Below are positions 5,789 to 26,081 of a stretch of DNA of 27,180 nucleotides, piece by piece. The stretch spans positions 1 through 27,180 of the IMG/VR virus record IMGVR_UViG_3300025128_007716. One strand, written 5' to 3'. The position numbers were made by a program, and so were the translations under genes. The notes below the pieces were generated by a model that was not told where the DNA came from, ran no database searches, and saw only the letters and a program-made list of their open reading frames with translations. The number at the start of each line of letters is the position of its first letter. Positions within the stretch are counted from its first letter, which is position 1. The DNA comes from a virus.

Positions 5789-5998
5789 ATGGACCACGCA
5801 CTTATCATCATTGGCTCTTTGTTGATCGTGGGACACGTTTTAACGGTCTTTGCGATTATGCTTAATATGACGAAAATCTCTAAGGAGTTCCGTCAGATCG
5901 TTTTAGAGCGTGAAGAAACACATAGAACAATGTATGCTCTAGGCCCAGATACCGAGTCGGACTCTAGCGACGAACACCGCATGATGGAGTATATGTGA
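5789..5998 (+). CDS. Small single-pass membrane protein
   Basis: The 69-residue product starts at ATG 5789, six bases after the terL stop. Residues about 4-26 (ALIIIGSLLIVGHVLTVFAI) form one transmembrane helix. The rest is charged and soluble (KISKEFRQIVLEREE, then an acidic DTESDSSDEH). It could be a pinholin-like or other lysis accessory protein, or a virion membrane-contact protein. With one helix and no lysis neighbours I leave it unassigned. Its stop overlaps the next start as ATGTGATG. Confidence 0.65.
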   Translation: MDHALIIIGSLLIVGHVLTVFAIMLNMTKISKEFRQIVLEREETHRTMYALGPDTESDSSDEHRMMEYM

Positions 5999-6513
5999 TG
6001 GCGATACCCGAGTTGTATTCATGGCAGCCAGAGCCAGAGGGCCCCGGCTTCTTAGACGTCCTTGGTGGCCTGGTAGGAACAGCCGGGATGATCGCAGGCA
6101 CAGCGGTCGGTGGCCCTGGGGGCGCTGCTATTGCCGCTGGCGCAATGGGTGGAGGCAAGTTGCTGCAAGGCGCTAGCGTTGGAGATGCCGCGCTGGCTGC
6201 CGGGGTGGCTGGCGCAGAGCAAGGCGTAAGGCAGTGGGCGGGCGACCACGCTGCAAAGAAGGCCCTCGAGAGAGACAACGAGTTGTGGGAGAAAAGAGCC
6301 AAAAACCTACAGTTGCTTATGTTTGGTCCTCCCAAAAACATTTCATCGACCGGAGGGGCCTCTTCTTTCAACCCCGCGTTTACTCTTGACCCATCAATAA
6401 TGGCAAACATTGCAGGGCTTGCGACCCCATCGCAGCCAGCGGGACAGCCGGTATCGATTCCAGGCCCACACGGAACAGGCGCTAGCCCATACTTTGGCCT
6501 CCCAAGGTTATAG
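5998..6513 (+). CDS. Gly/Ala-rich hydrophobic protein, possible membrane-active virion component
   Basis: The 171-residue product starts at ATG 5998, eight bases after GGAG (5986-5989). A GTG at 5995 would add one residue. Residues about 18-70 are Gly/Ala-rich and hydrophobic (DVLGGLVGTAGMIAGTAVGG, then AAIAAGAMGGGK), resembling glycine-zipper membrane segments. A charged helix follows (QGVRQWAGDHAAKKALERDNELWEKR), then a Pro/Gly/Ser-rich tail. Its place between terminase and portal, and its composition, suggest a minor virion or ejection protein that inserts into the host membrane. I do not recognise a named family. Confidence 0.6.
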   Translation: MAIPELYSWQPEPEGPGFLDVLGGLVGTAGMIAGTAVGGPGGAAIAAGAMGGGKLLQGASVGDAALAAGVAGAEQGVRQWAGDHAAKKALERDNELWEKRAKNLQLLMFGPPKNISSTGGASSFNPAFTLDPSIMANIAGLATPSQPAGQPVSIPGPHGTGASPYFGLPRL

Positions 6514-6515
6514 AG

Positions 6516-8489
6516 ATGAAAGAACAACAACAGACTGACAGTGAAAGGCGCCTTCTTCGGGTTATTGAGGAGCGCTTAGACTCATGCCTTAAGATTAAAA
6601 AGGACCGCATGGAAGAGGCCATGGTGGTCCTTCTTGCTTATGGTGGTTTTTCAATCGATACGGCAAGGGATTTTGCGTCTAGGGTTCAAAGCTCCAGCCT
6701 GCCCAGGTGGTTCGAGGACCGGGTTGTACTGAACATTCTCCAGCCAATCGCTAGGACAGCGGCGGCGATGGTGGTGTCTAATCACCCCACATGGATTGTA
6801 GATCCAATGGGTGACAGCACACACCAACGACAAGCAGCCCGTGGCGTTCAAAAGATGCTGGACTACTTTTATCGAACCAACAACATGCCCTCGGTTATGG
6901 ACCAGGTTGTTCTTCGTAGCGTCTTAACTGGATACGCTGGCGTATACATTGACTGGGATTCTCAGGTTGGTGTTGGCGAGTACGAAGAGAAAAACGCAGG
7001 CCGAGATGGCTGGTTTGTGATCGAGCCTGTAGATATTTTCTCATGGCACCACGAGCCCGGTGTTGGTGGTTCAGACAAAGCGTTCTGGGGAATCCGTGAA
7101 TCAACGATGCACATCGAAGAGGCGCGACTGTTCTTCAACGACCCGCACATCCAGAAAGCTGCGCCGTCCGACGAGGATGATACCGTAAAGCGCCAGCTTC
7201 AGCTTGTCGCTGACAACGAGGGCGTGAACATTGACTTCTCTCAAGACACAGACCGGGTCCGTGTTCTGCATTACTGGCAGAAGCCGGGAGCGCAATTCCC
7301 AGACGGGCTTGAGGTTGTTGTTGCTGGTGACAGGGTTGTGTCGTTTAAAGACCGCCTGATTGGTGGAGAGTTTCCGATCTACACAATGAAGTTCTCCTTG
7401 GAACCACACCGAGACTACGCTTCAGGCATTGGAACAAGCCTTCTTCAGCTTCAGCGCGACCTCACGGTTACGTGGAACGGCTACAGGGTCCGAAGGGACC
7501 AAGAAGTAATGCCCTCTTGGTTTGTCCCTAAAGGTTCTTTGACCCGAGGGATTAACACCAGACCAAAGGCAATCAACGAATACAACCCGAGGATGGGCTC
7601 GCCACAGCAGATGTCAATGAACCCGCTGTCGCTCGTCACGGGTGGGTTTGCTGACAGGACAATCCAAATGATGGAGTACGTGTCTGGCGTCAACGACGCT
7701 AGCCGTGGAGAGTCTCCAACAAGCAACGCAACAGGGCGACTTACTGCATTCTTGGCAGAGCTAGACAACCGCAGGATGGGGCCAACGGTTCGCGAAATGG
7801 GCGCAATGATGAAGCGCATTGGCCGCAGGATGATCCGACTCTGGCAAGAGTTTGGTAGCGAGACTATTGCTGTATCAATCCTTGGCCGTGGCCACAGCGC
7901 TGAGATTGCAGAGGTCAGAAAAGAAGACGTTATCTACTCGAGCATTGATATCGATGTCGCGAGCTTGATGCCAAGAACGCAGCCGCTTAGGCAGGAAACA
8001 ATCCTTAACCTCCTTCAGATGGGCGTTGTTCCACCGGAAAGAGCGCTGGATGCCCTGGAGTTTGGTGGCTTTGAAGAGGCGGTTGGGTTTAGAAGCGTTG
8101 AAGCGATGAACGCGCGGCAGGAGTCGGAAGACCTTGCCGACCTTACCATCGACATTAACGATATCATGGCTCATGATTATGAAGAGCACGAGACTCATAT
8201 CAACGAGCATGTAAAGTATCTCCTGGTTGAAAAGCCCGGCGATGCTATCAGGGAGCGCTTTGTGGCTCACATTGAAAAGCACAAGGCGTTTATTCAGCAG
8301 GCCGCAGCACAGGAAGCGGCAGCACAGCAAGGAGCGCCTGGTCCGATGGGTGGCCCTCCTGGTTTACAAATAGAAGGCTCCCAGGCATCTCCTGGCGGGC
8401 TTCCAATGGAAATGATTCAATTTGCAGAGCCAGGTGTTGATGCGGGGGCTGAAGCCAGCCTTGCAGCCATGGCAGGACTAGAACAATAG
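6516..8489 (+). CDS. Portal protein
   Basis: The 657-residue product starts at ATG 6516 with AAGG upstream. The size and layout match podovirus portals of the P22 type: an N-terminal helical clip/wing region, the NILQPIARTAAAMVVSNHP segment, a domain of conserved-looking WFVIEPVDIFSWHHEP type, and a long helical middle (RLTAFLAELDNRRMGPTVRE) that would form stem and crown. The C-terminal 70 residues are Ala/Gln/Gly/Pro-rich and probably flexible. It sits between terL and the scaffold, as expected. The portal forms the dodecameric ring through which DNA is packaged and leaves. The similarity is judged by pattern and context. Confidence 0.85.
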   Translation: MKEQQQTDSERRLLRVIEERLDSCLKIKKDRMEEAMVVLLAYGGFSIDTARDFASRVQSSSLPRWFEDRVVLNILQPIARTAAAMVVSNHPTWIVDPMGDSTHQRQAARGVQKMLDYFYRTNNMPSVMDQVVLRSVLTGYAGVYIDWDSQVGVGEYEEKNAGRDGWFVIEPVDIFSWHHEPGVGGSDKAFWGIRESTMHIEEARLFFNDPHIQKAAPSDEDDTVKRQLQLVADNEGVNIDFSQDTDRVRVLHYWQKPGAQFPDGLEVVVAGDRVVSFKDRLIGGEFPIYTMKFSLEPHRDYASGIGTSLLQLQRDLTVTWNGYRVRRDQEVMPSWFVPKGSLTRGINTRPKAINEYNPRMGSPQQMSMNPLSLVTGGFADRTIQMMEYVSGVNDASRGESPTSNATGRLTAFLAELDNRRMGPTVREMGAMMKRIGRRMIRLWQEFGSETIAVSILGRGHSAEIAEVRKEDVIYSSIDIDVASLMPRTQPLRQETILNLLQMGVVPPERALDALEFGGFEEAVGFRSVEAMNARQESEDLADLTIDINDIMAHDYEEHETHINEHVKYLLVEKPGDAIRERFVAHIEKHKAFIQQAAAQEAAAQQGAPGPMGGPPGLQIEGSQASPGGLPMEMIQFAEPGVDAGAEASLAAMAGLEQ

Positions 8490-9313: not shown

Positions 9314-10813
9314 ATGCAGAAGCAATCCAGCTATAGTGGTGGCGCCTCCAATAACATGGCTATTTCTAGCCTTGATAAGGTGCTTACCAACTTTTACATC
9401 CCTCGGATGTTTGAGCAAATCCAGGTAGAAAATCCTGGGTATGAGTTTTTCAAAAACATGAACACTGTTGTTTCCTGGGGCCCAGGTAACACGGCTAGCT
9501 TCCCTGTTCGCAGGAAAGCAAAGCGCGCTGTTGTTGGTGGTACCTCTGGTCGCTTGCCAACAGGCGGCTCGGCCACTTACGACCAGTGTACATTTGATTA
9601 CACGGTGTTCCGTACCCTCGTGAGTTTTGCGTGGGACCTTCAAATGAAGGGCGGACACGAGCGCTACATCAAGAACATTCTTGATTCGGCAATCACCGAT
9701 GCAAAGCATGAGTTCTTGCGACGAATGAACTGCTACCTTTATGGTGGATCGTTGTCCTACGGAACTGTTGATGGTGTAGATAACACGGTGCAGTCAAACC
9801 TTGACGACGCTACTTTTGGCGCGTCAAACCTTGTTGCTACGCTATACGCTCCATCTGACACCGCAAACGGTTCGTCAACTGAGCCTCTTCAGGTCCAGTC
9901 TTGCTGGCGTAAAGGTAATGGTACCAGTGATGCGTTTAGTGCTCATGGCGCGCTCTGGCTTCAGCCTGGTGACTTTATCGCTATTGCCTCGAAGGTTACA
10001 TCTGACAAGGTCTTTTTCCGTCGCATCGACTCAATTGACCGCAGCACTTACTCTTCTGGGTATGCTAGCATCACCCTTAACAAGAACCTTCCTGGCGGTG
10101 TTACTGCTGGATCTCACATCTACTTCGCTTCGCCTTCGGACGCGACAGATACGATTGAAGACCTTACAGGAACGTTAATCACTGCTTCTGGCGCAGAGCT
10201 TTCTGACTGCCAAGCTGGCCTTTTCGGTATGGCAAACGCTTTGTTTGACAAAACATACCTTGGGAAAGTTAATGGCAGCGCAGGTGGCTCGGACAGCTAC
10301 TGGAAGTCGGTTGTTAAAACCGGTTCCACCGCTGGAACCAACGAGGCGCTTACCTTTGAGCGTATCGACGCCCTTCTCTTAGAGATGAATCAGCAAATGT
10401 TTGTTAAGCCAGACCTGTTGATCATGAACCCAGGAATGTGGCACGAGTTCATTAGCTTGAGCGAGTCCAACCACTCCTTCTTCAACCAAGGCCAGCTTCC
10501 TTCCGGCCACAAGCCAGGGACCAAGCCTCTCTACTCGACGGCTAACGCCACTACGGGCCAGGGAGACCTCAAGGTTCTTGTTGACCCATACTGCCCACAC
10601 GAGCGAATCATCACTTGTGATACGGGTGAGATGGGTTACGCCACGGCAGCGCAAATGGGAGAGGCCAAAGAAGACGGCTCTTTCCTTCGCCACACCGGAA
10701 CGAACTACGATGAGTTCCATGGTTGGTTGCGTTGGGCTGGACAGTTTATCGCGCATAGCCCGTCTGCGATTGGTATCCTTCAGGATGTCACTCAAGACAT
10801 TACTGCGCTTTAA
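9314..10813 (+). CDS. Major capsid protein
   Basis: The 499-residue product starts at ATG 9314. The N-terminal arm (MAISSLDKVLTNFYIPRMFEQ) and the DYTVFRTLVSFAWDLQMKGG segment (95-114) look like the N-arm and spine-helix region of HK97-fold capsids. The C-terminus has GWLRWAGQFIAHSPSAIGIL, the kind of ending seen in P22- and N4-like coat proteins. The central 130-330 is Ser/Thr/Gly-rich and may contain an inserted domain. It follows the scaffold, has a dedicated U-rich leader and is closed by a strong terminator, all expected for the most highly expressed structural gene. Confidence 0.88.
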   Translation: MQKQSSYSGGASNNMAISSLDKVLTNFYIPRMFEQIQVENPGYEFFKNMNTVVSWGPGNTASFPVRRKAKRAVVGGTSGRLPTGGSATYDQCTFDYTVFRTLVSFAWDLQMKGGHERYIKNILDSAITDAKHEFLRRMNCYLYGGSLSYGTVDGVDNTVQSNLDDATFGASNLVATLYAPSDTANGSSTEPLQVQSCWRKGNGTSDAFSAHGALWLQPGDFIAIASKVTSDKVFFRRIDSIDRSTYSSGYASITLNKNLPGGVTAGSHIYFASPSDATDTIEDLTGTLITASGAELSDCQAGLFGMANALFDKTYLGKVNGSAGGSDSYWKSVVKTGSTAGTNEALTFERIDALLLEMNQQMFVKPDLLIMNPGMWHEFISLSESNHSFFNQGQLPSGHKPGTKPLYSTANATTGQGDLKVLVDPYCPHERIITCDTGEMGYATAAQMGEAKEDGSFLRHTGTNYDEFHGWLRWAGQFIAHSPSAIGILQDVTQDITAL

Positions 10814-11274: not shown

Positions 11275-11985
11275 ATGAACCTCTCAACTGCACGCACCCA
11301 ATTACGCCTTATGCTGGGCGACCAGTCTGAGAGTGTTTGGAGCGACTCTGATCTAAACACACTGTTAAACAGAGCGAACCTTCGTATATACAGAAGGCTT
11401 TTGTCCGAAGATCCAAGCAGCGCGTTTGAGCAAAAGGACTACACATACGCAGCAAACAGCGAGTCTATTGCTATTGTTGGGTCAGGTGTAGACTCAAGCT
11501 CCGCAGCGGTAAACCCGATCATCAACCTAGAAAAAGCATTTTACAAGACAAGCGGAAGCACGACGTTCAGGCAGCTCCCGATAGGAACAATGGCTGAGTT
11601 TAACGAGGTTAAGGCTGGCACCAGCACCACGCACGACTTAATCTCTGTTTTACCAAATCTTTACGGCGGGTATGTTGGGTATCTCGTGGATGGAAAAGGC
11701 AGGTTTGGCGTAAGACCTGTACCATCAACCGCATTGACTATCCGGCTTGTACTTAACTGTGATGTTGGAGAGGCCGCGCTGAGCGGGGATAGCTCTAACC
11801 TACTGTCAATCGATGCCTCATCGGCAGACGGGCAGAACCTGGCATACCACGAAGCCGTTGTATATGACGCTGGCTTCTTGGCTACATTTAAAGACGAGTC
11901 TTTAAGGCAGGAGTTCATGAGCATGCGAGAGGACGTCATGTCCATCCAGTCCATGAGAGCCACCAGTTTACATGAGGCATACTAA
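11275..11985 (+). CDS. Head-tail adaptor (P22 gp4-like position and pattern)
   Basis: The 236-residue product starts at ATG 11275, behind TAGGAG. The opening (MNLSTARTQLRLMLGD, then WSDSDLNTLLNRANLRIYRR at 22-41) is typical of phage adaptor or tail accessory proteins, which begin with a four-helix bundle that docks under the portal. The middle is beta-rich (GGYVGYLVDGKGRFGVRPVP), and the C-terminus is helical (YHEAVVYDAGFLATFKDE, then LRQEFMSMRED). This fits the ring that joins the portal to the tail hub. Its stop overlaps the next start as TAATG. Confidence 0.7.
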   Translation: MNLSTARTQLRLMLGDQSESVWSDSDLNTLLNRANLRIYRRLLSEDPSSAFEQKDYTYAANSESIAIVGSGVDSSSAAVNPIINLEKAFYKTSGSTTFRQLPIGTMAEFNEVKAGTSTTHDLISVLPNLYGGYVGYLVDGKGRFGVRPVPSTALTIRLVLNCDVGEAALSGDSSNLLSIDASSADGQNLAYHEAVVYDAGFLATFKDESLRQEFMSMREDVMSIQSMRATSLHEAY

Positions 11986-14345
11986 TGGCTGGTGCAGAGC
12001 GGTTCGTAAATATAAAGCCCACAATGGGCCCTGGGACAGACTCGCTTCGGTTTAGCCTTAACCTTACCCCCCAAATGGGTGTGCTGAAAAGGCGGCCTGC
12101 CATCAGGGCTGTAGAGCTTGGGTATGGGATTACCACTAACGGGGCGACAACGGGCAGCGAGCCCTTCATGCATTACCCGACCAATGATGGTGGGCCAACG
12201 TCGGGCGGCCCGAATTTATTCTATGACGCAGATGGCCAGGTCTATGACGCCATTGATTTTGTTGGCGTTCCGTATACGGTTTCTAACGCAACAACGGGCA
12301 GCGCATCACACCCACCATCGCTATATGGCGGCTCTGTCAATGCAAAATACAACCCGTCAAACCTCATAGAGGAGGGCATTGATGTTGAGCTTATTCACGG
12401 TAAGCTCGTGTGCATGTATCTGACTCGCAAAATGATAAACGTGGCGGACTCAGATGAATCAATACTAATGGCCTGGTCTTGGCATATGCCTGGGGACCCA
12501 AGGCTAGGGTGTAATAAAGGGGACGATTTCCTAGCTGGCTCGACCGGCTTCGTGTCGTCTTACTTTTTGGGTAGCGAGTCTGCCGATGGGCATGGGTTGG
12601 TCGGCTTTAACAGAGCAGGCCTACACGCTTATACAATGGCGTCGTACTGGGACAAGCGAATACACAAAGTGTTAGACGCCTTTATGATGACGGGAAAAGG
12701 TGTTGGCCTGTCGCATATCGGGGCTGGTGTCGTCAATGCCCCTGTGGCTCAGGGCAGCCTTAGCGCGGACTCTATTGTCTTGTGGAACGGCTTGCCGTTA
12801 AAGATGATGGGTGTTCCAGAGGTTATTACAACAGACAGTTCTGGGAACATATCTCGAACAGACCCGTTCTCTTCGATCTACGCAACACACGCACCCAAGT
12901 CAGCGTTTGCTCACACAGACAGGCTGGGGCAAACGGTTTGGTATGGGTTTAGGCCTGGAGACATTTACACGCTCCAGTCTGCTTTGCCAGACGCAGATGT
13001 GACTGTAAACATTCCACCAGGCGACCTGAGTGAAGACAGGATAGACATCACAATGGGCTCGTATGACGTGTGGTATTCAGAGCCAAACAACCCAATGTCT
13101 TTACCTGCTGTTGGCATTATCCCTGTGCTTAACGGCTCAAGGGCAGCAGAGGTTGTTAGCCTCTCCGAGTTCAATCACGGAACGGTTGTGTTTACGAGAG
13201 ACAGCATCCAATACATTTCTGGAATTGGGTCTGATGCAGAGTCAGCATCTCGCCGCGTAATCAGCATGGGAATGGGCGCCGACTCAAGGTGGGCGACAAA
13301 GGAAGTGGGGAACGGCGTGGCGTTCTGCAACAAGGCTGGCTTACACTTTTTAGACCCCAGGGGCTCCGTTAGAAGGCTGGTTGCTTTCGACGAGTTGTTT
13401 AATGAGGGCGTAGTTGCCGAGCGTGAGCCATACAGTGGGCAGCAGGGTGGCACCGGGGTTACGTCAGACGACGGGCTTATTTACAAGGCAGACAACAACG
13501 GTGACGTCTACCCGTGGAAGCACTACCAGGTGGACAAGACAAGGCTAGACCGGGCTGTTGGCGCAGTGTGGGGAGACCTCTACATCTTGTTTGTCAGTAG
13601 AACGATTGACGACACAGGGGACGACAACCGCCTCGCCCTTGTCTGGAACTGGAAAGAGAACGGGTTCTCTACCTGGCTTCTTCCTAAAAACATGGGCGTG
13701 CGCGGCTGGGCTTACGACGGGACACTGTCTTGCCCATACGTCATGACTCGATATGGGCTTGCCATGTTTGATCCAGACTGGACAAACGACGAGGCATGGG
13801 TCCACTCCACAGCAGAGACAGCAAGAAACACTATCGACACAGGGATACCTATTCCAGTGCTTGGCCAAACACACCGCTTCCCGGCAACGGGAGATGGGTT
13901 TGTTGTGCCACACGCAACTGTAACACACACGGCAAAGCTGGACGACGCGGCAGACGTTGGGCCAACAGAGGTTGGCAGCGCCCTTGCGATGCACATCCAG
14001 ATGTGGACGCAGACGTCTGAGCTTTCTATTGCGCGACATGATCGAAACACAAACGACATCGTCAACGCAAAGAACCTGGTGCTACAGAACCTGTACAAGG
14101 GCTCGTTTAAGGGGTGGAGAAAAACACACGCCTCAGACTTTGGCGACTCCCACAACAGGCGAACACCAGGAGTGCAGACTGACGTCTCCTATCGTGTCAA
14201 CGGGGCAATCGTTCGCACAAGCACGTGCCGCTCTGGTGGACATGCTTTGCGACACAGAATGCAGTTCTTCACACTGAACCACAGCGATATAGTTGGGGTC
14301 TCTGTTGGCGTGTCTGCTGTTAGCCCGAGAGGGCGCAGGGCATGA
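11985..14345 (+). CDS. Large beta-rich tail hub/nozzle candidate (P22 gp10 or T7 gp12-like position)
   Basis: The 786-residue product starts at ATG 11985 with GAGG at 11974-11977. It is mostly beta strands and turns. The stretch near residues 393-415 (GTVVFTRDSIQYISGIG) followed by ISMGMGADSRWATKEVGNG and AFCNKAGLHFLDPRGSVRR is typical of beta-propeller blades found in podovirus tail hub or nozzle proteins. Gene order (capsid, adaptor, hub) agrees. Such proteins form the sixfold tube that plugs and then passes DNA. The assignment is by blade pattern and synteny; no enzyme motif was seen. Confidence 0.65.
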   Translation: MAGAERFVNIKPTMGPGTDSLRFSLNLTPQMGVLKRRPAIRAVELGYGITTNGATTGSEPFMHYPTNDGGPTSGGPNLFYDADGQVYDAIDFVGVPYTVSNATTGSASHPPSLYGGSVNAKYNPSNLIEEGIDVELIHGKLVCMYLTRKMINVADSDESILMAWSWHMPGDPRLGCNKGDDFLAGSTGFVSSYFLGSESADGHGLVGFNRAGLHAYTMASYWDKRIHKVLDAFMMTGKGVGLSHIGAGVVNAPVAQGSLSADSIVLWNGLPLKMMGVPEVITTDSSGNISRTDPFSSIYATHAPKSAFAHTDRLGQTVWYGFRPGDIYTLQSALPDADVTVNIPPGDLSEDRIDITMGSYDVWYSEPNNPMSLPAVGIIPVLNGSRAAEVVSLSEFNHGTVVFTRDSIQYISGIGSDAESASRRVISMGMGADSRWATKEVGNGVAFCNKAGLHFLDPRGSVRRLVAFDELFNEGVVAEREPYSGQQGGTGVTSDDGLIYKADNNGDVYPWKHYQVDKTRLDRAVGAVWGDLYILFVSRTIDDTGDDNRLALVWNWKENGFSTWLLPKNMGVRGWAYDGTLSCPYVMTRYGLAMFDPDWTNDEAWVHSTAETARNTIDTGIPIPVLGQTHRFPATGDGFVVPHATVTHTAKLDDAADVGPTEVGSALAMHIQMWTQTSELSIARHDRNTNDIVNAKNLVLQNLYKGSFKGWRKTHASDFGDSHNRRTPGVQTDVSYRVNGAIVRTSTCRSGGHALRHRMQFFTLNHSDIVGVSVGVSAVSPRGRRA

Positions 14346-15781: not shown

Positions 15782-16369
15782 ATGGCTGGGACTTATGACA
15801 CAGGCAAGAAATCTTGGATGGACAAACCAGATCCGGGGTACGGGTTTTCTTATCCAACCCCCTCCGGGGCGGGAAACCAGCAAAAAGAAGTCCTCCCCTG
15901 GCTGCGCGGGATGATTATGAACACAGATGCCCAGAGAAAAGCTGGGCTTCAGCAGATCGCAGCACAGACCGGGGCGAACCTGAGAAAGGCGGGAGCACAC
16001 GCCGCTGGACGAGGCCTTGCTGGAAGCGGGGCGGCTGGCGCAATGCGGGGCCAAGCCCTTGCGGGCAAGCAAATGGCCGAAGCGCAACTAGCAGCAAACC
16101 TTCAAAACCAGCAGATTCAGTCAGCACTTGCCTTCACACAAGCAGAGCAAAGGCAACAACAGCTTGACCTAGAAGAGTTTGGTGGTGGGGTGTCCGTCCT
16201 TACGCAGACGTGGGCTGACCTACAGAAAGCTGGCGAGGTACACGACGAAGACTGGCCTGCCTTTGCACAGATATTCCAAGGCGCTCTTAGTGAGTATGAA
16301 AAAACAGGAGATGTCTCTGTGTTCGCTAAGTACTCAGCAGCACTTGCCGCATTAGGTGGAGACGTTTAA
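15782..16369 (+). CDS. Internal virion (ejection) protein, T7 gp14-like in size and position
   Basis: The 195-residue product starts at ATG 15782 behind TAGGAG. Residues about 50-125 are Ala/Gln/Gly-rich helices (QQIAAQTGANLRKAGAHAAG, then AEAQLAANLQNQQIQSALAF), typical of ejection proteins that insert into the outer membrane. The C-terminal third is acidic and helical. T7 gp14 has almost the same length and is likewise the first of three ejection genes. The protein would leave the capsid and help build a channel across the envelope. The function is inferred from composition and order. Confidence 0.65.
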   Translation: MAGTYDTGKKSWMDKPDPGYGFSYPTPSGAGNQQKEVLPWLRGMIMNTDAQRKAGLQQIAAQTGANLRKAGAHAAGRGLAGSGAAGAMRGQALAGKQMAEAQLAANLQNQQIQSALAFTQAEQRQQQLDLEEFGGGVSVLTQTWADLQKAGEVHDEDWPAFAQIFQGALSEYEKTGDVSVFAKYSAALAALGGDV

Positions 16370-16391
16370 ATCCCCAGACGGAGTAAGAGTC

Positions 16392-18254
16392 ATGGCGTTT
16401 CAAAATCTATACCCAACAGGAATGCGTCCAAAGAAAGCGACCTTCGGAGAGAAGGTTCAGGATGCTTTGCTGAATCTGGCTGGGACCACTGCTGGGGCGT
16501 ACCTTAACCGCAAGTTTGTTCAGGAGCCGCTTCTTGAGCAGAAGCACAAGCAGGCCATGGAGGGCCTCGACAAGCGCTATGAGTATGAGCACGACAAGCA
16601 AGGCCTGCAACATCAGCATGAGCTAGAAAAGCAAGAAAAGCTTATGGTGTTACAGAGAGACCTGAAGGAGTTTGGCAGCGCCCTGCTTGTTGAGAGGGAT
16701 GACATTAAGAGCCTGCAAGGTATTATAACGAAAATACCGGAGCTATATAAAGGGACGACCGACCTGGTCAACCAGTCGATTGCGGCTGGCAAGAAAACGT
16801 ATACATATAAGGACATAGGGAAGCTGGTTGAGGAGGCAAGGAAAGATGTTCGCTTGCTCAACACGCTTCAGAAAGACGCGAAGACCGAGGCGAATAAAGG
16901 GCTTTACGCTGACAGGCTTTTGGCTGCCGAGTCCAGGCATAACCAGCTCATTTCATTAGAGGGATCTGGCAGGGGGGCAAAGTCAAAAACCATTGTAGAC
17001 CCAAAGATTGTCAGCGGTGTGTTTAACTCCCTTGTCGCGTCCAGAAAGGCTGAGTTTGCGGTGAAGGTGCGGTTGTACGGAAGAGCGTATGAGGTGCTTA
17101 GGAACTCGTCTGGGTCAAGGCGCGTCCAAGACTCCCCGCCCTGGCTAGAGGTCTTTGAGACTTACATGGCTGACCCGGAAGCAAGGCATAGGGCAGAAGT
17201 TATTATTGAAAAAGAAAGAGACGGCTCTGGTCGGAAAGTGGCAGACACTGCGCTCAAAATGGGGCCAACAAGCGCGGCAATTGCCAAGAAAAAGCGTAAA
17301 GAGGCTGGGCTTGGTACCCCTCAGACAGGGGTCTCTCAGGCAGGCGTGTTTGATCTTAGCCCAGGCCAGACAAAGGATGAGGCAACCGAAAGAGCGTGGG
17401 CCGCCGAGCGCAAAATCTTTTTGAGCAGGTACGGGAAGCTGTTCCCGCGCGCAAAGGCTGGTGACGCCGAGCGGGCGTATGAGGCTATACAACTTCGCTC
17501 AAGCTCGAACAGGGGCCCCTTAGTGCAGGCGGCTGCTGCAAACCTTCGCGGCCTGGGGGGTAACAGGGCGAGAACGGAAGGGCTGCGTAAGGACCTAAGG
17601 AAAGGCAGGTCAGAAGCTCTCAAGTACGACCTCTCTGAGTCAAAGGCGCTAATTGATGCGCTTTACCCGGTTTTTGATCGCCTGGGGGTTGCAAAGGATT
17701 CACGCGAGGATGTGATAGAAGGCGTTATAGCAAGCACTCCAAACATCGATCCTAAAACAATAGAGAGGTTGCTAGAAGGAGATACCCTTAGAGATAAACT
17801 GGAGGAAAGCCTGCGAGAAAAAGCCCTTAAGGCTACCGATGACGAAAGTGTTTGGAACGACGAGAAGGCCATTAAAGAAATAGCGGACATGGCCGCGCCT
17901 ATCATCAAGAAGCGGATAGAAGTCTTAAAAAGCGCAACCCCAGCCAAAGACAAGGACAGGGTAAAAGCTGGCTGGCCGGCCACCAGGGAAGGAGCCGAGG
18001 AGTTTACAAAGACACTTTTTAAGGCAGGCGGTCCAGGGCTGGTAAGGGTTTTTGCAGAGGTAAATTATTACCAGAAAAGCGGCAGGCCAAAGCACGCTGA
18101 AAACCTTTACGAGGTCTTCTTTCCAACCTATGAAAGGTGGTCCAGGGCCAAGTCTAGGGGTGCAGGAAAAGACGAGCTTATAGAGATTGTCACCATGGGA
18201 GTACAGAACCTACACAGCACCATGAAAAAACATGGTATGTCGGTGGCCCGTTAA
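16392..18254 (+). CDS. Internal virion (ejection) protein, T7 gp15-like in position
   Basis: From ATG 16392 the product has 620 residues. GGAG at 16380-16383 lies eight bases upstream, which I prefer over GTG 16356, where no ribosome site is seen. The protein is almost wholly helical and highly charged. Residues about 40-95 (EQKHKQAMEGLDKRYEYEHD, then QHQHELEKQEKLMVLQRDLK) make a long coiled coil rich in His, Gln, Glu and Lys. No membrane segment and no enzyme motif are visible. Size, helical nature and place between the small and giant ejection proteins fit a gp15-like component of a DNA-ejection channel. Confidence 0.6.
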   Translation: MAFQNLYPTGMRPKKATFGEKVQDALLNLAGTTAGAYLNRKFVQEPLLEQKHKQAMEGLDKRYEYEHDKQGLQHQHELEKQEKLMVLQRDLKEFGSALLVERDDIKSLQGIITKIPELYKGTTDLVNQSIAAGKKTYTYKDIGKLVEEARKDVRLLNTLQKDAKTEANKGLYADRLLAAESRHNQLISLEGSGRGAKSKTIVDPKIVSGVFNSLVASRKAEFAVKVRLYGRAYEVLRNSSGSRRVQDSPPWLEVFETYMADPEARHRAEVIIEKERDGSGRKVADTALKMGPTSAAIAKKKRKEAGLGTPQTGVSQAGVFDLSPGQTKDEATERAWAAERKIFLSRYGKLFPRAKAGDAERAYEAIQLRSSSNRGPLVQAAAANLRGLGGNRARTEGLRKDLRKGRSEALKYDLSESKALIDALYPVFDRLGVAKDSREDVIEGVIASTPNIDPKTIERLLEGDTLRDKLEESLREKALKATDDESVWNDEKAIKEIADMAAPIIKKRIEVLKSATPAKDKDRVKAGWPATREGAEEFTKTLFKAGGPGLVRVFAEVNYYQKSGRPKHAENLYEVFFPTYERWSRAKSRGAGKDELIEIVTMGVQNLHSTMKKHGMSVAR

Positions 18255-18274
18255 AAAGATTAAAGGAGAGTAAG

Positions 18275-21200
18275 GTGGTTATTGGACCAAGGGATTTCTC
18301 GAGCATCCTGAGCGACCTTGTTCGACTTAGGGATCCTATCCCCAAAGGGCCGAGTAGGCCTGCCGGAGAGGTAGATGTTATGGGTCAAATGGCTTCTCTC
18401 CTGGCAGAGCAGCCGCCCCAACAGCAGCCAACCGACCCATACCAGGGCTATGGCATATCAGCCCGCTACCAGGACGACACCCCCCTTGAGCCCCAGCTAA
18501 TAGAGCAGACCCCGCCAACAGGGGAGGCGACAGGCGAGGTGTGGGGGGAGGACGTACCAGAAACCCTGCCGGAGTTCTTGCCAGAGGAAGCGAGAGAGTC
18601 GTACAGGGCCTTTACTGGGGAGATGGGTGTGACCGAGCCTGTTCAGGCTAGGCAGATTTTTGAGGAGCTTGAGGAGGGTGTGCCACAGCGCGACGACATG
18701 GGCGTGACAAACCCCTTTGAGGCAGGAAGATTGGCTCGGCAGAGCGCAGGGCTAGCATTGGCTATTGCTTCGCAGAAAACAGCAGCGCTTACGACGCAGG
18801 AGACAAGCCTCACTAACGCACTAGAGCTAACAAAAAACATTGTTGGCACCAGAGGTGTTGACCAGCTTGTTTCAGCAGCAGAAAAAGACATTGCCGCAAT
18901 CACAGAGGGTGAAAGGCGCTTCTCTGGAGACGTGTTCGTTGCTGATGTTCAGCCTTTTTTTGATGACCTTATCGAAAACAGGCCCGACCTGGTGTCAGCT
19001 ATAATAAAAGCGGAGCAGGGCGGCACACCTATTCTTAGGACGCCCGAATACAAACTTGCCCTAGAGGCAGCCAAGTCTCACTGGTTTAGCTCACCAGAAG
19101 AGCAGGGCTTAAGCGAGCCAAGAAGACTGTTTCTCCTTAAAGAAGGCAGGCTGGGCGAGGACCGTGGGCGCAGGCGAGGGCTGGCGCTAAAAACATTGGC
19201 AACACCCGGCGCCCTTGCTCAGTACGCTGGATACAAAGGCCTAGCCAAAGGCTCTCTGAAAGAAGAGCTAGAGTCCACACTGCGAGATGCTGACGACAAA
19301 GAGGGCATGCTCAGGTCTTCTGTTGGCAAGGCTTTGGGGGTTAAACCTAAAGACGACAGCCACCCAGCAAACAATTCTGTCATCATGTTTAAGAAAGGGT
19401 CTGACCTTGATGTTCGCGCCGTAGAGGTCATTGTTGCATACAGCAGGAACATCCAGACCAAAGTGCAGCTTGATGAAGCTAAAAAGTCTTCAGCGCTGGG
19501 CAACAGGGTGTTTAGTACGCTTGAGCTTCTTCGTTTCCTTGACGGGAAGATGACGCCACAAAGACTTACCGTGTACATGGCGGCAGTCGAAAAAGACCCC
19601 TCGTTTTTCGGAAGCGGCCTGCCAATAAAAGAAAGAGACGCCTCCGCTGGGTGGAACAGTAAAATCATCCCCGCAATTAAAGAGACTGCTCGAGATATTT
19701 TACGAACAGAGCTTTTGGTAAAACGAGATGGTGAGTCTGCTATGCAGCATGCAGCTCGAGTGTCTGGTGTTATTGACCTTTTGGACGTTGTCCCTGAGTC
19801 TTTCAATATGATCCGAGACTCTGGGTTTAACGAAAGAGGTGTGCCTTATTTTGTAGTGTCTGACTCCTTGTACAACGACACAAGGCGGGCGCAGCCAAAG
19901 ATGTCGTCAGATCCACTTGACCGGGCTATGGCTATTGGTGGGGATGTAGTTAACGCAAAGCAGATTGAGTACGTTGAGAAGCACGTTATGCCTCACGTCC
20001 CCAACATACCCCTCACAAATGCAATGGCAGAAAGCCTTAACCCGCCCAAGTACCGCGCCTTTAGCATGAGCTTTGACCCAAGCGTTTTAGAGAGGGCAAA
20101 CAGGGAGGCACACGGCACAGACACGCTATTAAAGATTCTGCGGGACAAGCCACAAACCGCGCTAGGAAGCAGCAAGGTCAACGAGCAGGTCGCACAAGCG
20201 CTTCACCTCAAGCAACAGGGGGCGACATCAGCATACCTGAACTCGATAGTTTTCGCCGCAACAGAAGAGTCAATGAGGACAAAGAGCTTTACTGACGTTG
20301 CTGGCGATTGGCTTGAGGCCACTGGCTCTGTCCTGCCTGGGCTTGGAAGGATCATTGCCATAGGTGTTGACGACGTAGCCTCGCTGTCACAAGCCGCTGT
20401 AAGGCTACCTGCTGCCGGTGTTGCGTATGCCCATGGCCTCATTACCGGAGATACATCTACGGCTGAGCAAATCATAGGCGAGTCTCTTGAGCATTTGCAA
20501 GAAGGGCTAACGCTTGTGTCGGCAGTCCCACAGATTGCCGTTGGGTACGCGGAACATATGGCAGGGTATAAAGACCCCGAAACATTTCTCAGGCGCCTCC
20601 GATACCATGGGCCGGTTCTTATTTATTGGGACTTTCTAGCAGGCAAGGCTATAACCTCGCACTTTGCCAGGGCCCCAGGGCGAGTTGTTCTTATTAGAAA
20701 AAGCGCCATCGCACAGCAACCAGCAAGGGTAAAAGGGCAGGCCTACTTTGATTACGTTGTCGCGCAAAAGAAAAGCGTAAAAGACGTGCAAGCTATGCTT
20801 GATAACATCGAGCGAATCGGGCGGCCAAGCTACACAAGGAAAATGAGGAAGGACGGCAAGCTCACAGCGACAGAGCAGAAAGGCGCGGTAGAAGCGTATA
20901 AAGAGACCATCGCCAAACACAGCGATGTGATCATGCCGGAGTCGGTAAAGCCTGTTCATCAAACTGTCTTTGTGATTGATGATGTTGCCAAGCCTGTTGT
21001 GGGGCAAACACAAACACCAAGAGCGCCCCTTCGGGAAAGGTCCGGGCTAGGCAAGCCCTACGTTAAACCATCTAGGGCAGAGAGGAGGGCCCGCACTGTT
21101 GACCAGAAGGTGACAGCTTTTAAAGAGTGGGCTCCGGCAAAAGAGCTAGGGTCTTTCCTGTACCGTAGTGCGTTAGAGCACATTGTTTCTGGAAAGAAAG

Positions 21201-24200
21201 GGGCGGGGGTTGTGAAAAGCCTTCTCATCGACGAGGCAAGGTATGGGTCTCAGATTCAGGAGATGATTCACTCGGCAAAGGCAGAGGATGTTCGCATTGT
21301 TAACATCATGCTTGACGGGAGAAACAAGGCCTTTGCTAGAGGTCACATGGACCTGTGGGGGGTAGCGCACCCCAAGGCTGTTGTGGACGCTATCCTTGAT
21401 GGCATGCGCGTACACAGGAACACCATTCTCGAGGGGCAAATACCGGTTCGGGTTGGGGGGAAAACCCTGAAGATCACAGAAGAAAGCCTACTTACGGCTA
21501 TTGACGACGCGGTCAAAGCAAACCCAGAAGGGTTTCAGAACGTCATGTTTGAAATTGCAAGGTCAGGCAAGGTGCTTGACACTAGCGCGTTTGTAGTAAG
21601 GGTGCCCGTAAAGCATGTTGGCGGGAAAGCCAAGGCTCAGGGCGGCATGGTCACGCTGGATCTTGTTGACCTTGGTATATTAAGGAAGAACGGCAAGCCT
21701 AAGATGTTTGGTCGAGGGGCAAAGAAAAGGCCTGTCGCTGAAGCCGTCTTAGAGCTTTGGAGAAAAGACGAGGCCACCATATCCCAGAAAGCAGTTGAAA
21801 TCGCGAGAAACAACCTGGAGCGATTGTATAAAGACGGGGCCCTGGTGCTTGACAGGATGGAAGAGACACTCACGTTTTTTCATCCAAAAACAAATGAGAA
21901 GTTTGTTATCCACAGAGACGACTTTTACAGCCAACTCGACAAATTCAGCAGAGAGCATGCATACAAGCTGATGAACCAAATCTACAGCAAGGACGGTATA
22001 GACCCTGGGTCGTTTGTTTTTACTAACAGCCAGGGGAAAAAGGCAGACCTGTTGCACACCGGGTTCGTGGAAGAGGCGGGCGCGAAAATCGTTCCAAGCC
22101 AGCCGTTGGCTGGGGCGCTATACGCAGACTCACTATCAATGCACGCGCGCCACACGGGGTGGAGCATAGAGACAATGTCTGGCCAGCTTCAGGTTCTTGG
22201 CGAGATAATGCAAGCAAACGGGGGGCCCAGGGTTGTTCTTTCAGTAGACGAGGCTGCGTGGGCCAAGTCCCCTCTGATGAGTGGAAGCAAGACGCTTCGG
22301 CAGGTTCTCACAGAAGACAGCTTTTTGTTTAGGATTCAAGAGCAGGCGGTGTTTCCGGTGCCAAGAAACCCAAACCAGTACACAAGCCCTGTCTCTCTTT
22401 TAAAGCAAGTGTACGGGAAAGAGAATGTTCGCTCCACCAAGTTTAAGGGTGACCCTCTTGTCCCAGGAACAAACGGCCAAATGCTTGCGACAAACGCTAA
22501 CTGGAAAGGTGGTAACGAGTGGATTGCCATTGAGATCAACACCGGAAAGGGTTTTCGCAGCTTAACCCCTAAAGACATCGCCTCGCTTGAAAGCAAGCTA
22601 GCAAAGAACCCGATTAAAGACGGGTATTGGAAAGGCAAAGACCTTCTTGTTGACGGCGGCTTCTATGACCGGCTTGTCCCAGCGCATGTAATGCTTGACA
22701 TGAGGGGCAGTGCTATTGGCAGGCTGATGTACAACGGTGGCAACTCGGCAGAGGCAGCGGCTTCGTTGAGACGGCTGTATAGTCAGGCTAAAGAGTCCGC
22801 CAAGGGAACGCTTCGAGGAGACAAGGCTTCCGGTGTTGGCAGGGACTTTTCTCCAATCAGGGATATTGCCCAGAAGGGAGATGTTGACGCCAGGATTTTG
22901 CCAGAGATTGCAAAGAACAACCCATACGCAGCGGCCATGGCAGCGTCTGAGCTTATGACACCACAGGCCAGGATGCAGTGGAACCTTTACATGAGAGATG
23001 GTGTTGTTCCGCCGTTCGCCCGGTCGAATAGTGGCATACAGGCAAGCTGGGAGCGCGCTGGGGTGTGGAACGCCCAGAAGCAGGCCCCAACTGGCCTGGG
23101 TCTTGTTAGTGCGTTGTTTGAGTTTGACCATAGCACCAGGTGGTATCAAACCTTGTTGACCAGGTCTGTCTTAGATGAGGGTTACAAATATGGCTCAAAG
23201 GTTCTTGATGTTCACAGCATTAAGGCGATGCCAAAAGGGGAGCATCTTGCCGCTTTAACCAAGACGCTTCGTTCGCACATGATTGACCACAGAAGGAGGA
23301 TGGCAAGCATTATTGCCGACCACATCAACTCCGGCTTCTATCGCAGTGAAAAGGTGGCGGCGAGTGTGTTCGAGTACGCGCAAGAAGTGTGGCTTAAACT
23401 GCTAAACGAAAACACCAAGGTTCACGACCCAGGCGTTCTTGATGTTGCAAAGAGTGTTGTTAAGCGTTCTCAGAAAAAGAAACGCTCGCCAGTTGACCTG
23501 TTGGTTGACGGTCTTGAGCGGGGGAATCTTCCAGCACTAGCGGACCCTTGGGTTGTTGGTGCTATCACTTTAAAGCAGCTTCAGAACAGGCTTACCAACG
23601 TGCGCCTGGTTAGATCTGCGATAGAGTCTGGCCTTATTCGGGGTGGCAAGGTTGGCGAGAAGCTCGACCCCAACCAGTGGATTAAGCTTGACACCAAGCT
23701 TGTGCAAGAGTTTGGGACGGAAATAGAAAAAGCCATGAAGCGCGGCGTTGACGAGTCTTTGGGTGTCTTCTCTGGGCAAGACCTTTGGATCAACAAAACC
23801 TTTGCGAAAGACATCGGCCTTAAAGGGAGGGCTCACAGGATTGTTGAGGAGGCAAGGCAGGGCAAAGGAGAGATATGGTCTGCGGTGCAGGAAACTGTTG
23901 GCGCAAAGCTCCCGATGGGAATTGATTATGTCCAAAACCTGTGGCGTACCAACCTTCTTTTCCGTGGTGGGTACGGGTCAAGCGTAAGAAACCTCGTAAC
24001 CAACTTGACCATGATCACGCTGATCAAACCCACAATGCTGGCCAGTGGCCAGTTCTGGTCTGACATGTTTGAGTATTGGACACATGCAAACAGGTACGAC
24101 AGAAAGACAGGAAAGCTTGCGCCAGGGAAGCTCCCAGACGACGCCTCAAGACACGTTATTGAGGTAATGGGTATCGAGACCTCTGGTCAAAGGGTCCTTG

Positions 24201-25786
24201 TTGGTCAGCCTGTGCAGCGAGGAATGCCAGGGGAGTTTACCCACCACCTTGGCCGGGTTGAACTGGCTACAGGAAAGCTTATTGACTACCTTCAAACGAC
24301 AGACGAGGGCAGGCAAATCATTCTTGAAGCCCAAGAGGCCGCCAAGAAATCAATCAAAAAAATAAACGAAGCAAAGAGAAAGAGGGGTGCTGAAAAAGAC
24401 GCCGTCTTTGAGGAGCTAATACTGGACTCTGCGGAGGTGTACGAAAGCTTCTACAATAACGTTATTAAAGCTGTGATAAAAAAAGAGCCCGGGTTAATTG
24501 ACTTTGCTTATGGGCTGGCAGAGAAGGGCTACAAGCCATCGAACCTGCTCCTTGACTCGCTTCACATGCTTAACCCAACATCGAAAGCTTTTTACAAGTT
24601 TCACCTTGGCATTGGCTCAGCTAGAAGCGCAAAGCTGGACATTATTACCGACGCCTTCAGATATCTGTTTACCGCAACAGATGAGTCGATTAGATACGCA
24701 GCAGCAAAACACTTCCACGGTTTAGGGTACCGAGACCAGGCCCTCGTAAGACAGGTAAACGGCATACTGCCAGACTTCCAACGCATTTCTGGGGCAATGC
24801 GCGGCGCAAGGTACATGCACCCGTTTATCTTATACAGCCTGAAGCAGACAGCGATCTTAGCCAAAGCAGGAGCGCAGCACCCAAACAGGTTCTTGGCAAT
24901 CCGGCTTTTAGCTGAAGACATGCGAGCGGAGGAGTGGGCCAACGACCCTAGCAACCTTGCAGCCGCGCTTCACTACTCCCTAATGAAGCCATCGTATCTG
25001 CTTGGAATGTCTGACGGAAGACAGCTAAACCTGGAATCTCTAATGACTACAGCATCAGCAGACGCGCTTGACTTCTCTGAAGTGTGGGTTATTAGCGAGC
25101 TTGCACAGTTTATAGAAGACCTATACGTGGCGGTGGACACTGAAGAGCAGCAGGAATCTTTTCTTGGCGTTGCGGCGAGCAAGCTGGTCAGGCTCTCAAC
25201 AGCGTATCACAGCTTCCTTGGCGGCAGCGCACAAGAGCCTCTTCTTCTTGATCTAGGCACGCTGTTAAGAGACGCTGCCTCAGGCGGGCTTGGGCGACCA
25301 CAGGAATATGTTCACGGAAAGTTTGCCAAAAGAGCTACCGAGGAAGGGTTTGGGACAGCGGTCTCAAGGCTGTTTGGCCTGGATGTAAAACCTGGGCTTA
25401 CCGATGAGGAAACGGGCGCCGTGTTCCTTAAGACAAAAATCCAGCTTAAAAACAACATGGTTAGACAGGTCTTAAAGTTCCGTGGCGTTGCCAAAAGAAA
25501 AGCCCTAAGAGACCTGCTGAGCAAAGGCTATATCTCTACAGACACGGTGTCAGACATTAACACAATGGCACCAAGCGACCCGTTTGGGCGGGCTGTTTGG
25601 GAGGTGTTCAAGCTCGACGACCCTGGTATGAGAAGACGATTTAGGGAGGCGCATGCGTCAGGCATGCTTGATTCTTTGCTGGATACAGCTAAAGATGAGG
25701 CAGGGAAAGAGCTTGGGTTCCAACAAGAAAACCAGGGCTTAGACTTAAGACCCACGAGTTCAGACCAAATATACAACGAGGAATAA
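18275..25786 (+). CDS. Giant (2503-residue) internal virion/ejection protein
   Basis: Starts at GTG 18275, six bases after GGAG (18265-18268). The first 120 residues are Pro/Glu/Gln-rich and disordered. The rest is mostly helical with mixed alpha/beta stretches. Residues about 679-725 (GSVLPGLGRIIAIGVDDVAS, then AGVAYAHGL) are the most hydrophobic part and could contact membrane. From W1890 the pattern WRTNLLFRGGYGSSVRNLVT and, near 2181, MHPFILYSLKQTAILAKAG resemble the C-terminal parts of very large phage proteins of the polyvalent or ejected type. I found no transglycosylase motif (present in T7 gp16), no single-subunit RNA polymerase motifs (as in the N4 virion polymerase) and no DxDxD site. 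It is third in a 14/15/16-like series. Ejection with the DNA is inferred; any enzymatic activity is unknown. Confidence 0.65.
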   Translation: MVIGPRDFSSILSDLVRLRDPIPKGPSRPAGEVDVMGQMASLLAEQPPQQQPTDPYQGYGISARYQDDTPLEPQLIEQTPPTGEATGEVWGEDVPETLPEFLPEEARESYRAFTGEMGVTEPVQARQIFEELEEGVPQRDDMGVTNPFEAGRLARQSAGLALAIASQKTAALTTQETSLTNALELTKNIVGTRGVDQLVSAAEKDIAAITEGERRFSGDVFVADVQPFFDDLIENRPDLVSAIIKAEQGGTPILRTPEYKLALEAAKSHWFSSPEEQGLSEPRRLFLLKEGRLGEDRGRRRGLALKTLATPGALAQYAGYKGLAKGSLKEELESTLRDADDKEGMLRSSVGKALGVKPKDDSHPANNSVIMFKKGSDLDVRAVEVIVAYSRNIQTKVQLDEAKKSSALGNRVFSTLELLRFLDGKMTPQRLTVYMAAVEKDPSFFGSGLPIKERDASAGWNSKIIPAIKETARDILRTELLVKRDGESAMQHAARVSGVIDLLDVVPESFNMIRDSGFNERGVPYFVVSDSLYNDTRRAQPKMSSDPLDRAMAIGGDVVNAKQIEYVEKHVMPHVPNIPLTNAMAESLNPPKYRAFSMSFDPSVLERANREAHGTDTLLKILRDKPQTALGSSKVNEQVAQALHLKQQGATSAYLNSIVFAATEESMRTKSFTDVAGDWLEATGSVLPGLGRIIAIGVDDVASLSQAAVRLPAAGVAYAHGLITGDTSTAEQIIGESLEHLQEGLTLVSAVPQIAVGYAEHMAGYKDPETFLRRLRYHGPVLIYWDFLAGKAITSHFARAPGRVVLIRKSAIAQQPARVKGQAYFDYVVAQKKSVKDVQAMLDNIERIGRPSYTRKMRKDGKLTATEQKGAVEAYKETIAKHSDVIMPESVKPVHQTVFVIDDVAKPVVGQTQTPRAPLRERSGLGKPYVKPSRAERRARTVDQKVTAFKEWAPAKELGSFLYRSALEHIVSGKKGAGVVKSLLIDEARYGSQIQEMIHSAKAEDVRIVNIMLDGRNKAFARGHMDLWGVAHPKAVVDAILDGMRVHRNTILEGQIPVRVGGKTLKITEESLLTAIDDAVKANPEGFQNVMFEIARSGKVLDTSAFVVRVPVKHVGGKAKAQGGMVTLDLVDLGILRKNGKPKMFGRGAKKRPVAEAVLELWRKDEATISQKAVEIARNNLERLYKDGALVLDRMEETLTFFHPKTNEKFVIHRDDFYSQLDKFSREHAYKLMNQIYSKDGIDPGSFVFTNSQGKKADLLHTGFVEEAGAKIVPSQPLAGALYADSLSMHARHTGWSIETMSGQLQVLGEIMQANGGPRVVLSVDEAAWAKSPLMSGSKTLRQVLTEDSFLFRIQEQAVFPVPRNPNQYTSPVSLLKQVYGKENVRSTKFKGDPLVPGTNGQMLATNANWKGGNEWIAIEINTGKGFRSLTPKDIASLESKLAKNPIKDGYWKGKDLLVDGGFYDRLVPAHVMLDMRGSAIGRLMYNGGNSAEAAASLRRLYSQAKESAKGTLRGDKASGVGRDFSPIRDIAQKGDVDARILPEIAKNNPYAAAMAASELMTPQARMQWNLYMRDGVVPPFARSNSGIQASWERAGVWNAQKQAPTGLGLVSALFEFDHSTRWYQTLLTRSVLDEGYKYGSKVLDVHSIKAMPKGEHLAALTKTLRSHMIDHRRRMASIIADHINSGFYRSEKVAASVFEYAQEVWLKLLNENTKVHDPGVLDVAKSVVKRSQKKKRSPVDLLVDGLERGNLPALADPWVVGAITLKQLQNRLTNVRLVRSAIESGLIRGGKVGEKLDPNQWIKLDTKLVQEFGTEIEKAMKRGVDESLGVFSGQDLWINKTFAKDIGLKGRAHRIVEEARQGKGEIWSAVQETVGAKLPMGIDYVQNLWRTNLLFRGGYGSSVRNLVTNLTMITLIKPTMLASGQFWSDMFEYWTHANRYDRKTGKLAPGKLPDDASRHVIEVMGIETSGQRVLVGQPVQRGMPGEFTHHLGRVELATGKLIDYLQTTDEGRQIILEAQEAAKKSIKKINEAKRKRGAEKDAVFEELILDSAEVYESFYNNVIKAVIKKEPGLIDFAYGLAEKGYKPSNLLLDSLHMLNPTSKAFYKFHLGIGSARSAKLDIITDAFRYLFTATDESIRYAAAKHFHGLGYRDQALVRQVNGILPDFQRISGAMRGARYMHPFILYSLKQTAILAKAGAQHPNRFLAIRLLAEDMRAEEWANDPSNLAAALHYSLMKPSYLLGMSDGRQLNLESLMTTASADALDFSEVWVISELAQFIEDLYVAVDTEEQQESFLGVAASKLVRLSTAYHSFLGGSAQEPLLLDLGTLLRDAASGGLGRPQEYVHGKFAKRATEEGFGTAVSRLFGLDVKPGLTDEETGAVFLKTKIQLKNNMVRQVLKFRGVAKRKALRDLLSKGYISTDTVSDINTMAPSDPFGRAVWEVFKLDDPGMRRRFREAHASGMLDSLLDTAKDEAGKELGFQQENQGLDLRPTSSDQIYNEE

Positions 25787-26080
25787 ATGAGCAAGGTATT
25801 GAAGACAGTTGGCGCAGCCCAACTCAACAGAATGTTTATTGATTACTACGGCAGAACAAAGAGCCAGAAGCGAGCGTTCGTGCATTTAGCCCACGAGCTT
25901 GACCGTATCAACAAGGTAGAACACAGTCTCGAAGAGAAGCTTAGTGTTCTTGCTGAGCAGCAGTCTGAGCTTCTCGATATTGTGAAGCAACTCACTGCCA
26001 AAATTTCTACACTAGAAAACAACACTGGTGCTGTGGTACAACCTAAGCGCAAGCCAGGACGACCAAAGAAGGAGACGTGA
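25787..26080 (+). CDS. Coiled-coil protein with C-terminal AT-hook
   Basis: The 97-residue product starts at ATG 25787, one base after the giant gene's stop, with GAGG upstream. Residues about 28-75 (HELDRINKVEHSLEEKLSVL, then EQQSELLDIVKQLTAKISTL) form a heptad coiled coil. The last residues, KRKPGRPKKET, are a textbook AT-hook (GRP core with basic flanks), which binds the minor groove of AT-rich DNA. The combination suggests a trimeric or dimeric DNA-binding virion protein, or one that ties DNA to the ejection proteins. The function is not established. Confidence 0.7.
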   Translation: MSKVLKTVGAAQLNRMFIDYYGRTKSQKRAFVHLAHELDRINKVEHSLEEKLSVLAEQQSELLDIVKQLTAKISTLENNTGAVVQPKRKPGRPKKET

Positions 26081-26081
26081 A

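Follow-up and report, generated by a model that had tools for sequence, protein, structure and literature searches.

The ejection proteins of phage T7, gp14, gp15 and gp16, measure 196, 747 and 1318 amino acids (aa), and the 14 phages compared in a review of such proteins share the order gp14–gp15–gp16, with sizes of 181–240, 431–982 and 609–1337 aa (PMC8954989). The review describes great divergence and domain swapping in this group—gp15-like proteins are at 34% identity while the portal is at 69%—and links the trios mainly to podophages with Gram-negative hosts. A far larger third member is known from N4 and DEV, where a protein of ~3,400–3,500 residues, an RNA polymerase, can be ejected (PMC12633501, PMC10925440); capsid packaging has likewise been proposed for many polyvalent phage proteins (Iyer et al. 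2017, PMC5512222). Here we analyze three successive genes at positions 15,782 to 25,786 of the virus record IMGVR_UViG_3300025128_007716, the complete IMG/VR record of 27,180 bases being referred to as the window. Their products have 195, 620 and 2503 residues and are, in our view, probably the internal virion proteins that a short-tailed phage, its portal being of the P22/SU10 type, ejects. An earlier note, made from the letters of this DNA, had proposed a T7-like ejection trio with a giant third member; this proposal is partly supported, being right in kind and too narrow in naming T7.

All three genes are uninterrupted open reading frames (ORFs) with the coordinates and product lengths given in the earlier note. 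The first (15782..16369, + strand), gp14-like by position and size, encodes a protein rich in glycine, alanine and glutamine. The second (16392..18254, +), gp15-like on the same grounds, is preceded by a Shine-Dalgarno sequence. Its longest reading, from GTG 16356, would yield 632 aa, but the 620-aa reading is preferred because GGAG lies 8 nucleotides before ATG 16392 and no comparable site precedes GTG 16356. The third (18275..25786, +) opens with a GTG start, with aaaggagagtaag just upstream. An ORF of 2503 codons is not a product of chance, since stop-free runs reach at most 305 codons in 50 random sequences that match the window in dinucleotide make-up. The guanine–cytosine (GC) content by codon position is even along the whole giant gene, and homologous giants in related contigs are likewise free of interruptions.

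Portal searches identified 16 related contigs, one of which (L002) is essentially the phage of the window. Four related IMG/VR contigs carry giants in the same setting. These giants have 2780 aa in G004 (31,557 bases), 3202 aa in G005 (46,886 bases), at least 2213 aa in G007, where the fetched contig stops within the gene, and at least 2387 aa in G010, where the start is missing. A further contig, L007, is the same strain as G004 (99.86%) and hence uninformative on rates. In G004, G005 and G007 the first two trio genes lie upstream of the giant, the first encoding 205, 265 and 242 aa, respectively. The series portal, scaffold, capsid, adaptor, tail, small, medium and giant is common to these three and the window, with the lysis end next where the contig reaches that far. 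Contig G010 (IMGVR_UViG_3300025141_000450, L032/L033) has its two ends within the giant and within the portal, respectively, as would be expected of a permuted or circularized genome.

The trio differs from its conserved surroundings in the extent of its divergence. Global identity between the window and G004, the nearest of its long relatives, is 77% for the terminase large subunit (TerL), 77% for the portal, 50% for the scaffold, 70% for the capsid, 81% for the adaptor and 64% for the nozzle; the two genes after the nozzle, g14342 and g15077, evolve moderately fast (66 and 51%). Identity is 29% for the gp14-like protein, 23% for the gp15-like protein and 22% for the giant, and 86% for the 97-aa product of the gene right after the giant (25787..26080, +), the right-hand border of the fast set. 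Shuffled nulls for the trio stand at 20–21% (20% for the first protein, 21% for the other two), so that, taken over their length, the trio proteins barely exceed the null or coincide with it. Homology is recognizable only in parts: in the first protein (BLAST identity of 29% across 190 aa, E-value 1e-18), at the N-terminus of the second, where ~55 residues are kept at 43% in both G004 and G005 while the remainder shows shuffled-null identity, and in a C-terminal core of the giant. Even in this core, window and G004 are separated by 2.90 substitutions per site, against 0.26 in the portal and 0.33 in TerL. The four-taxon core tree has the same topology as the portal and TerL trees, with a support of 62%.

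The giant starts with an acidic region rich in proline and glutamate (residues 1–160), continues with a variable region to residue ~1440 and the conserved core (~1440–2260; 22592..25051, +), and closes with a C-terminal tail ending in the acidic ...SSDQIYNEE. Residues 800–2260 are basic, with net charges of +25 and +26 in the two halves. The core is defined by a four-way alignment and BLASTP E-values of 1e-7 to 1e-11 with the relatives, and contains the recurring motifs RNxxxN, FxxTDxxxR and PFxxxxxK...HPxR. Outside the core, including the first ~1,450 residues, confident homology is absent even among the relatives. An AlphaFold model of the last 1200 residues is nearly all helical, at a predicted local distance difference test (pLDDT) value of 33.8; the second protein is modeled as all-helical with a mean pLDDT of 44.0. 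Both models derive from four-row alignments and are too poor for fold searches.

The core also ties the giant to cultured phages. Compared by HHalign with the giants of the actinobacterial phages Shocker, DS1 and Jasmine and of the environmental podophage MW202795, it scores 46.7 (E-value 1.3e-4, ~126 columns), against a maximum of 21.3 for column-shuffled controls (n=60) and 18.0 for the reversed profile. Remote homology between the C-terminal part of the core and the actinobacterial phage giants is thus moderately well supported at the profile level. In all three actinophages the giant is the last member of a small–medium–giant series followed by lysis genes: 244/417/1743 aa in Shocker (L039 21434-28680), 247/441/1783 aa in DS1 (L040 4503-11944) and 238/431/1803 aa in Jasmine (L055 15347-22802). 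Gene position and order are those of the window trio, although the third member is shorter (1743–1803 against 2503 aa), as is the second (417–441 against 620 aa). Shocker and DS1 also belong to the few cultured phages whose portals match that of the window. Homology of the first two proteins to those of the window is undetectable in Shocker and DS1, Jasmine lying outside this test, and a direct match between the window giant and phrog_36598, the actinophage giant type, is absent. Shocker (a Microbacterium phage), DS1 and Jasmine (an Arthrobacter phage) have Gram-positive hosts, yet these phages carry a small–medium–giant series in the ejection position.

Other phages were reached through the terminase. 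CRP-7 and Vibrio phage 1.182.O carry several proteins of 570–1370 aa instead of one giant, and where tested these proteins do not match the core. Escherichia phage PTXU04 encodes a hypothetical protein of 2,197 aa (L051 22690-29283) between its tail and lysis genes.

The reading of the trio as ejection proteins draws on its order and its place behind the tail genes and ahead of the lysis end, on the sizes of the first two proteins, on the matching series in the relatives and in cultured podophage-type genomes, N4 and T7 included, on the P22/SU10-type portal, on the helical second protein (in a low-confidence model), on the fast divergence and on the link of the core to the actinophage giants. 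Several findings weigh against it. Our searches connect the trio with no experimentally proven ejection protein, whether by sequence, profile or structure. The window trio matches neither phrog_805, phrog_1339 and phrog_342 (T7 gp14, gp15 and gp16) nor the Pfam and PDB-sequence profiles of these T7 proteins, and this same PHROG library recognizes the N4 virion RNA polymerase and T7 gp14, gp15 and gp16. HHalign comparisons of the core and the two smaller proteins with the T7 and N4 trio proteins give about shuffled level. The actinophage giants are themselves annotated as 'hypothetical protein', and the nozzle and adaptor of the window are assigned by position and size alone. Hydrophobic stretches are rarer in the giant than in its shuffled versions and fail to align between relatives; membrane segments are therefore not demonstrated. 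A gp16-like topology with two membrane regions, considered from hydropathy, is likewise unproven: the highest 101-residue mean falls near ~700 in the window giant, and the relatives differ. On the transmembrane helices of gp14-like proteins, hydropathy speaks neither for nor against: the top 19-residue value of the first protein is 0.92, and T7 gp14 itself reaches just 1.31 by the same measure.

Searches against Pfam, PHROG and PDB sequences give no significant match for the giants scanned; the earlier note had found no enzyme motif in the extra mass. No domain, polymerase or other, is recognized in the giant, and resemblance to a known enzyme is absent. Weak Pfam hits to FeoB_Cyto (0.14), MR_MLE_N (0.0065) and LigA (0.039) lie under the cut-off and were judged to be chance; the weak hit of the window giant is absent from its relatives. 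A match of the gp14-type profile to ATP synthase subunit c (PDB, 0.0012) covers a short stretch rich in glycine and alanine and is compositional. Neither the 2.9 million viral contigs nor the 50,697 phage records searched with the window giant as a single protein contain a match, an alignment search with the giants found no contigs beyond those already known, and a prophage search in 84,980 cellular genomes returned no relatives.

The size pattern raises the question of whether the giant could be a virion RNA polymerase of the N4 type, diverged beyond recognition, within a Schitoviridae-like set that starts transcription on entry. The 150/644/3500 aa of N4 is the nearest size pattern to that of the window, and the gene order agrees. 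We nevertheless regard a polymerase as highly improbable: phrog_2206, the virion RNA polymerase family, recognizes N4 gp50 with 3964 bits and leaves the giants of the window, G005, G007 and G010 unmatched, no polymerase is hit in the PDB, and neither the window giant nor its core gives a BLAST or HHalign signal with N4 gp50. The motif B pattern (RxxxK, then YG) is present in N4 gp50 and in none of these giants. In the comparisons with polymerases, the N-terminal two thirds of the giant were represented by single sequences or a three-row profile, so that a very diverged polymerase in this part keeps a slight probability. An injected effector of the polyvalent kind, which would combine several host-takeover domains in one chain and for which ejection would be secondary, accords with the size of the giant, its variable N-terminal ~1,450 residues and its place in a presumably packaged set, as well as with the proposed capsid packaging of many polyvalent proteins. 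None of the giants scanned has a Pfam domain above threshold, however, and this reading appears unlikely to us, even though divergence may explain the absence. An external structure, formed by the tail or associated with fibers and not ejected, would account for the location of the trio directly after the tail genes and for the moderately fast divergence of its neighbors g14342 and g15077. The small–medium–giant series is, on the other hand, the known order of ejection genes, and the AlphaFold sketches of the second protein and of the last 1200 residues of the giant are, at low confidence, nearly all helical, unlike typical fibers; we hold an external role to be very improbable.

A different question, compatible with ejection, concerns the cause of the divergence. 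Instead of evolving fast in place, the cassette may have been replaced wholesale by recombination with a distant relative. The borders of the fast set are sharp (51% just before, 86% just after and about the null inside), and the core of the window giant is about as distant from G004 (24.4%) as from G005 (23.9%). Still, the core tree repeats the topology of the portal and terminase trees, albeit with the support of 62%, and a non-adjacent gene, g5995, behaves alike, which a single cassette swap would not explain. Replacement is a real possibility, though in our judgment not the favored one.

This gene (5995..6513, +) encodes a small, glycine-rich hydrophobic protein of 172 aa and lies between TerL with the small transmembrane (TM) gene and the portal. 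Both of its neighbors are conserved, and it is the sole other gene with trio-like divergence: its product is 30–39% identical to those of relatives whose TerL and portal are at 86–88%, and is near the shuffled null against G004 and G005. A glycine-rich gene encoding 127–346 aa fills the same place in the relatives, and their proteins retain a glycine- and alanine-rich hydrophobic N-terminal segment. Two of them match weakly the gp16 family around the first membrane part (E-value 0.05) and a tape-measure family (E-value 0.004), matches that may be compositional. From its rate and composition, we propose the 5995–6513 product as a candidate fourth injected component.

If the three genes do encode ejection proteins, we infer presence in the virion, ejection, an order of exit and all membrane roles as follows. 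The 195-aa protein, the proposed outer-envelope pore or cap protein, would leave first on adsorption and make or cap a pore in the outer layer of the envelope. The helical 620-aa protein, the proposed tunnel protein, would form a tunnel behind it, and the giant would exit last, as separately folding or unfolding segments. Its conserved C-terminal core might be the part anchored in the membrane or tunnel, with the variable N-terminal ~1,450 residues delivered into the cell. The glycine-rich protein would probably be a further component of this set and insert into the membrane. A separate 151-aa SLT transglycosylase (3095..3550, +; Pfam SLT, 7.2e-10) could open peptidoglycan in trans; it may serve as such a hydrolase for virion entry or, equally, for lysis. 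Homologues of this protein are encoded on the opposite strand in G009 and G010, and in G010 near the genes downstream of the giant.

No terminal repeats were found in the window, which therefore probably represents only part of a larger genome. All of its genes lie on one strand, in the order of a helix-turn-helix protein, RusA, SLT, TerL, the small TM-like gene, the glycine-rich gene, portal, scaffold, capsid, adaptor-like, nozzle-like, two more tail-type genes, the trio and the 3′ end. TerL (3851..5782, +) matches phrog_2 (8e-21), and the P22/SU10-type portal (6516..8489, +) matches Pfam P22_portal (6.4e-10) and SU10_portal (1.6e-8) as well as phrog_156 (4.6e-18). Profile support for the major capsid protein (9314..10813, +) is weak and comes from two major head protein families, phrog_37569 (0.003) and phrog_9953 (0.005). 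The putative head-tail adaptor (11275..11985, +; 236 aa) has no profile match; profiles likewise do not confirm the putative nozzle (11985..14345, +; 786 aa), which is close in size to T7 gp12 (794 aa). HHalign shows no convincing signal between these two proteins and those of T7, PTXU04, Vibrio phage 1.182.O or the actinophages. At the 3′ end, the window runs into a gene whose G004 relative matches a peptidoglycan-binding domain weakly, falling just short of the threshold. A putative structural gene at 26028–26432 encodes 134 aa against 227 aa for its G004 homologue, to which it matches in two separate places, so that the product seems to lack a central block.

What is new here is a size class of giants without a recognizable polymerase, a core that ties them to cultured phages, and a rate signature with its fourth candidate gene. 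Should the three proteins indeed be ejected, the size range of third members in the review (609–1337 aa) would about double for a protein with no recognizable polymerase, and the passage of so much protein through a narrow tail, as well as the role of the extra mass, would become questions. The conserved C-terminal core offers a handle for finding such giants once the remainder is unrecognizable, while rate comparison along the genome nominates an additional injected protein beyond the reach of homology searches. The similar series in phages of Gram-positive hosts raises the question of whether such trios truly occur only in phages with an outer membrane to cross. Tentatively, and with considerable doubt, we picture an uncultured podophage lineage with a non-polymerase ejection giant of ~2.5–3.2 thousand residues, whose C-terminal anchor is remotely shared with actinobacterial phages. 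Its ~1,450–1,950 N-terminal residues, which may carry changing sets of unknown injected functions, differ almost wholly between relatives with capsid genes at 70–80% identity, and a physically separate fourth gene would co-evolve with the giant.

Set beside the T7 trio (PHROG 805/1339/342), the window genes agree in order, in their position after the tail and in the size of the first protein (196 against 195 aa); the second is roughly alike (747 against 620 aa), and both fall inside the gp14-like and gp15-like size ranges of the review. To this extent the T7 comparison in the earlier note stands, while membership of the T7 families is unsupported, with the gp14, gp15 and gp16 profiles unmatched and the transglycosylase missing. 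The giant lies beyond the gp16-like range and, at 1.9 times the 1318 aa of T7 gp16, is almost twice as long, as the note had said, although that comparison overlooked the N4-family third members of ~3,500 aa already known. T7 gp16 has an N-terminal transglycosylase domain, which is also missing in P22 and Sf6; a Pfam scan finds none in the window giant, where SLT is instead a separate gene. T7 gp16 also requires a basic C-terminal tail of five residues, conserved in its close relatives, whereas the window giant ends acidic. In size, 195/620/2503 aa is closer to N4 gp52–gp51–gp50 (150/644/3500 aa) than to T7, even though the N4-type third member of ~3,400–3,500 aa exceeds both the window giant and those of its relatives (2780–3202 aa). 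The window shares a giant third member with N4 and with DEV (gp73–gp72–gp71, Schitoviridae), and a peptidoglycan hydrolase is known in none of these trios; N4 has an RNA polymerase in third place, while polymerase profiles leave the window giant unmatched. Polyvalent proteins (PMC5512222) are comparably very large and thought to be packaged and injected, but their recognized domains are absent from the window giant. Alike to N4 and DEV in position and size, with no polymerase seen and membership of either family not shown, the giant therefore most likely works in a similar way, and the trio as a whole most likely works like the T7- and N4-type systems.

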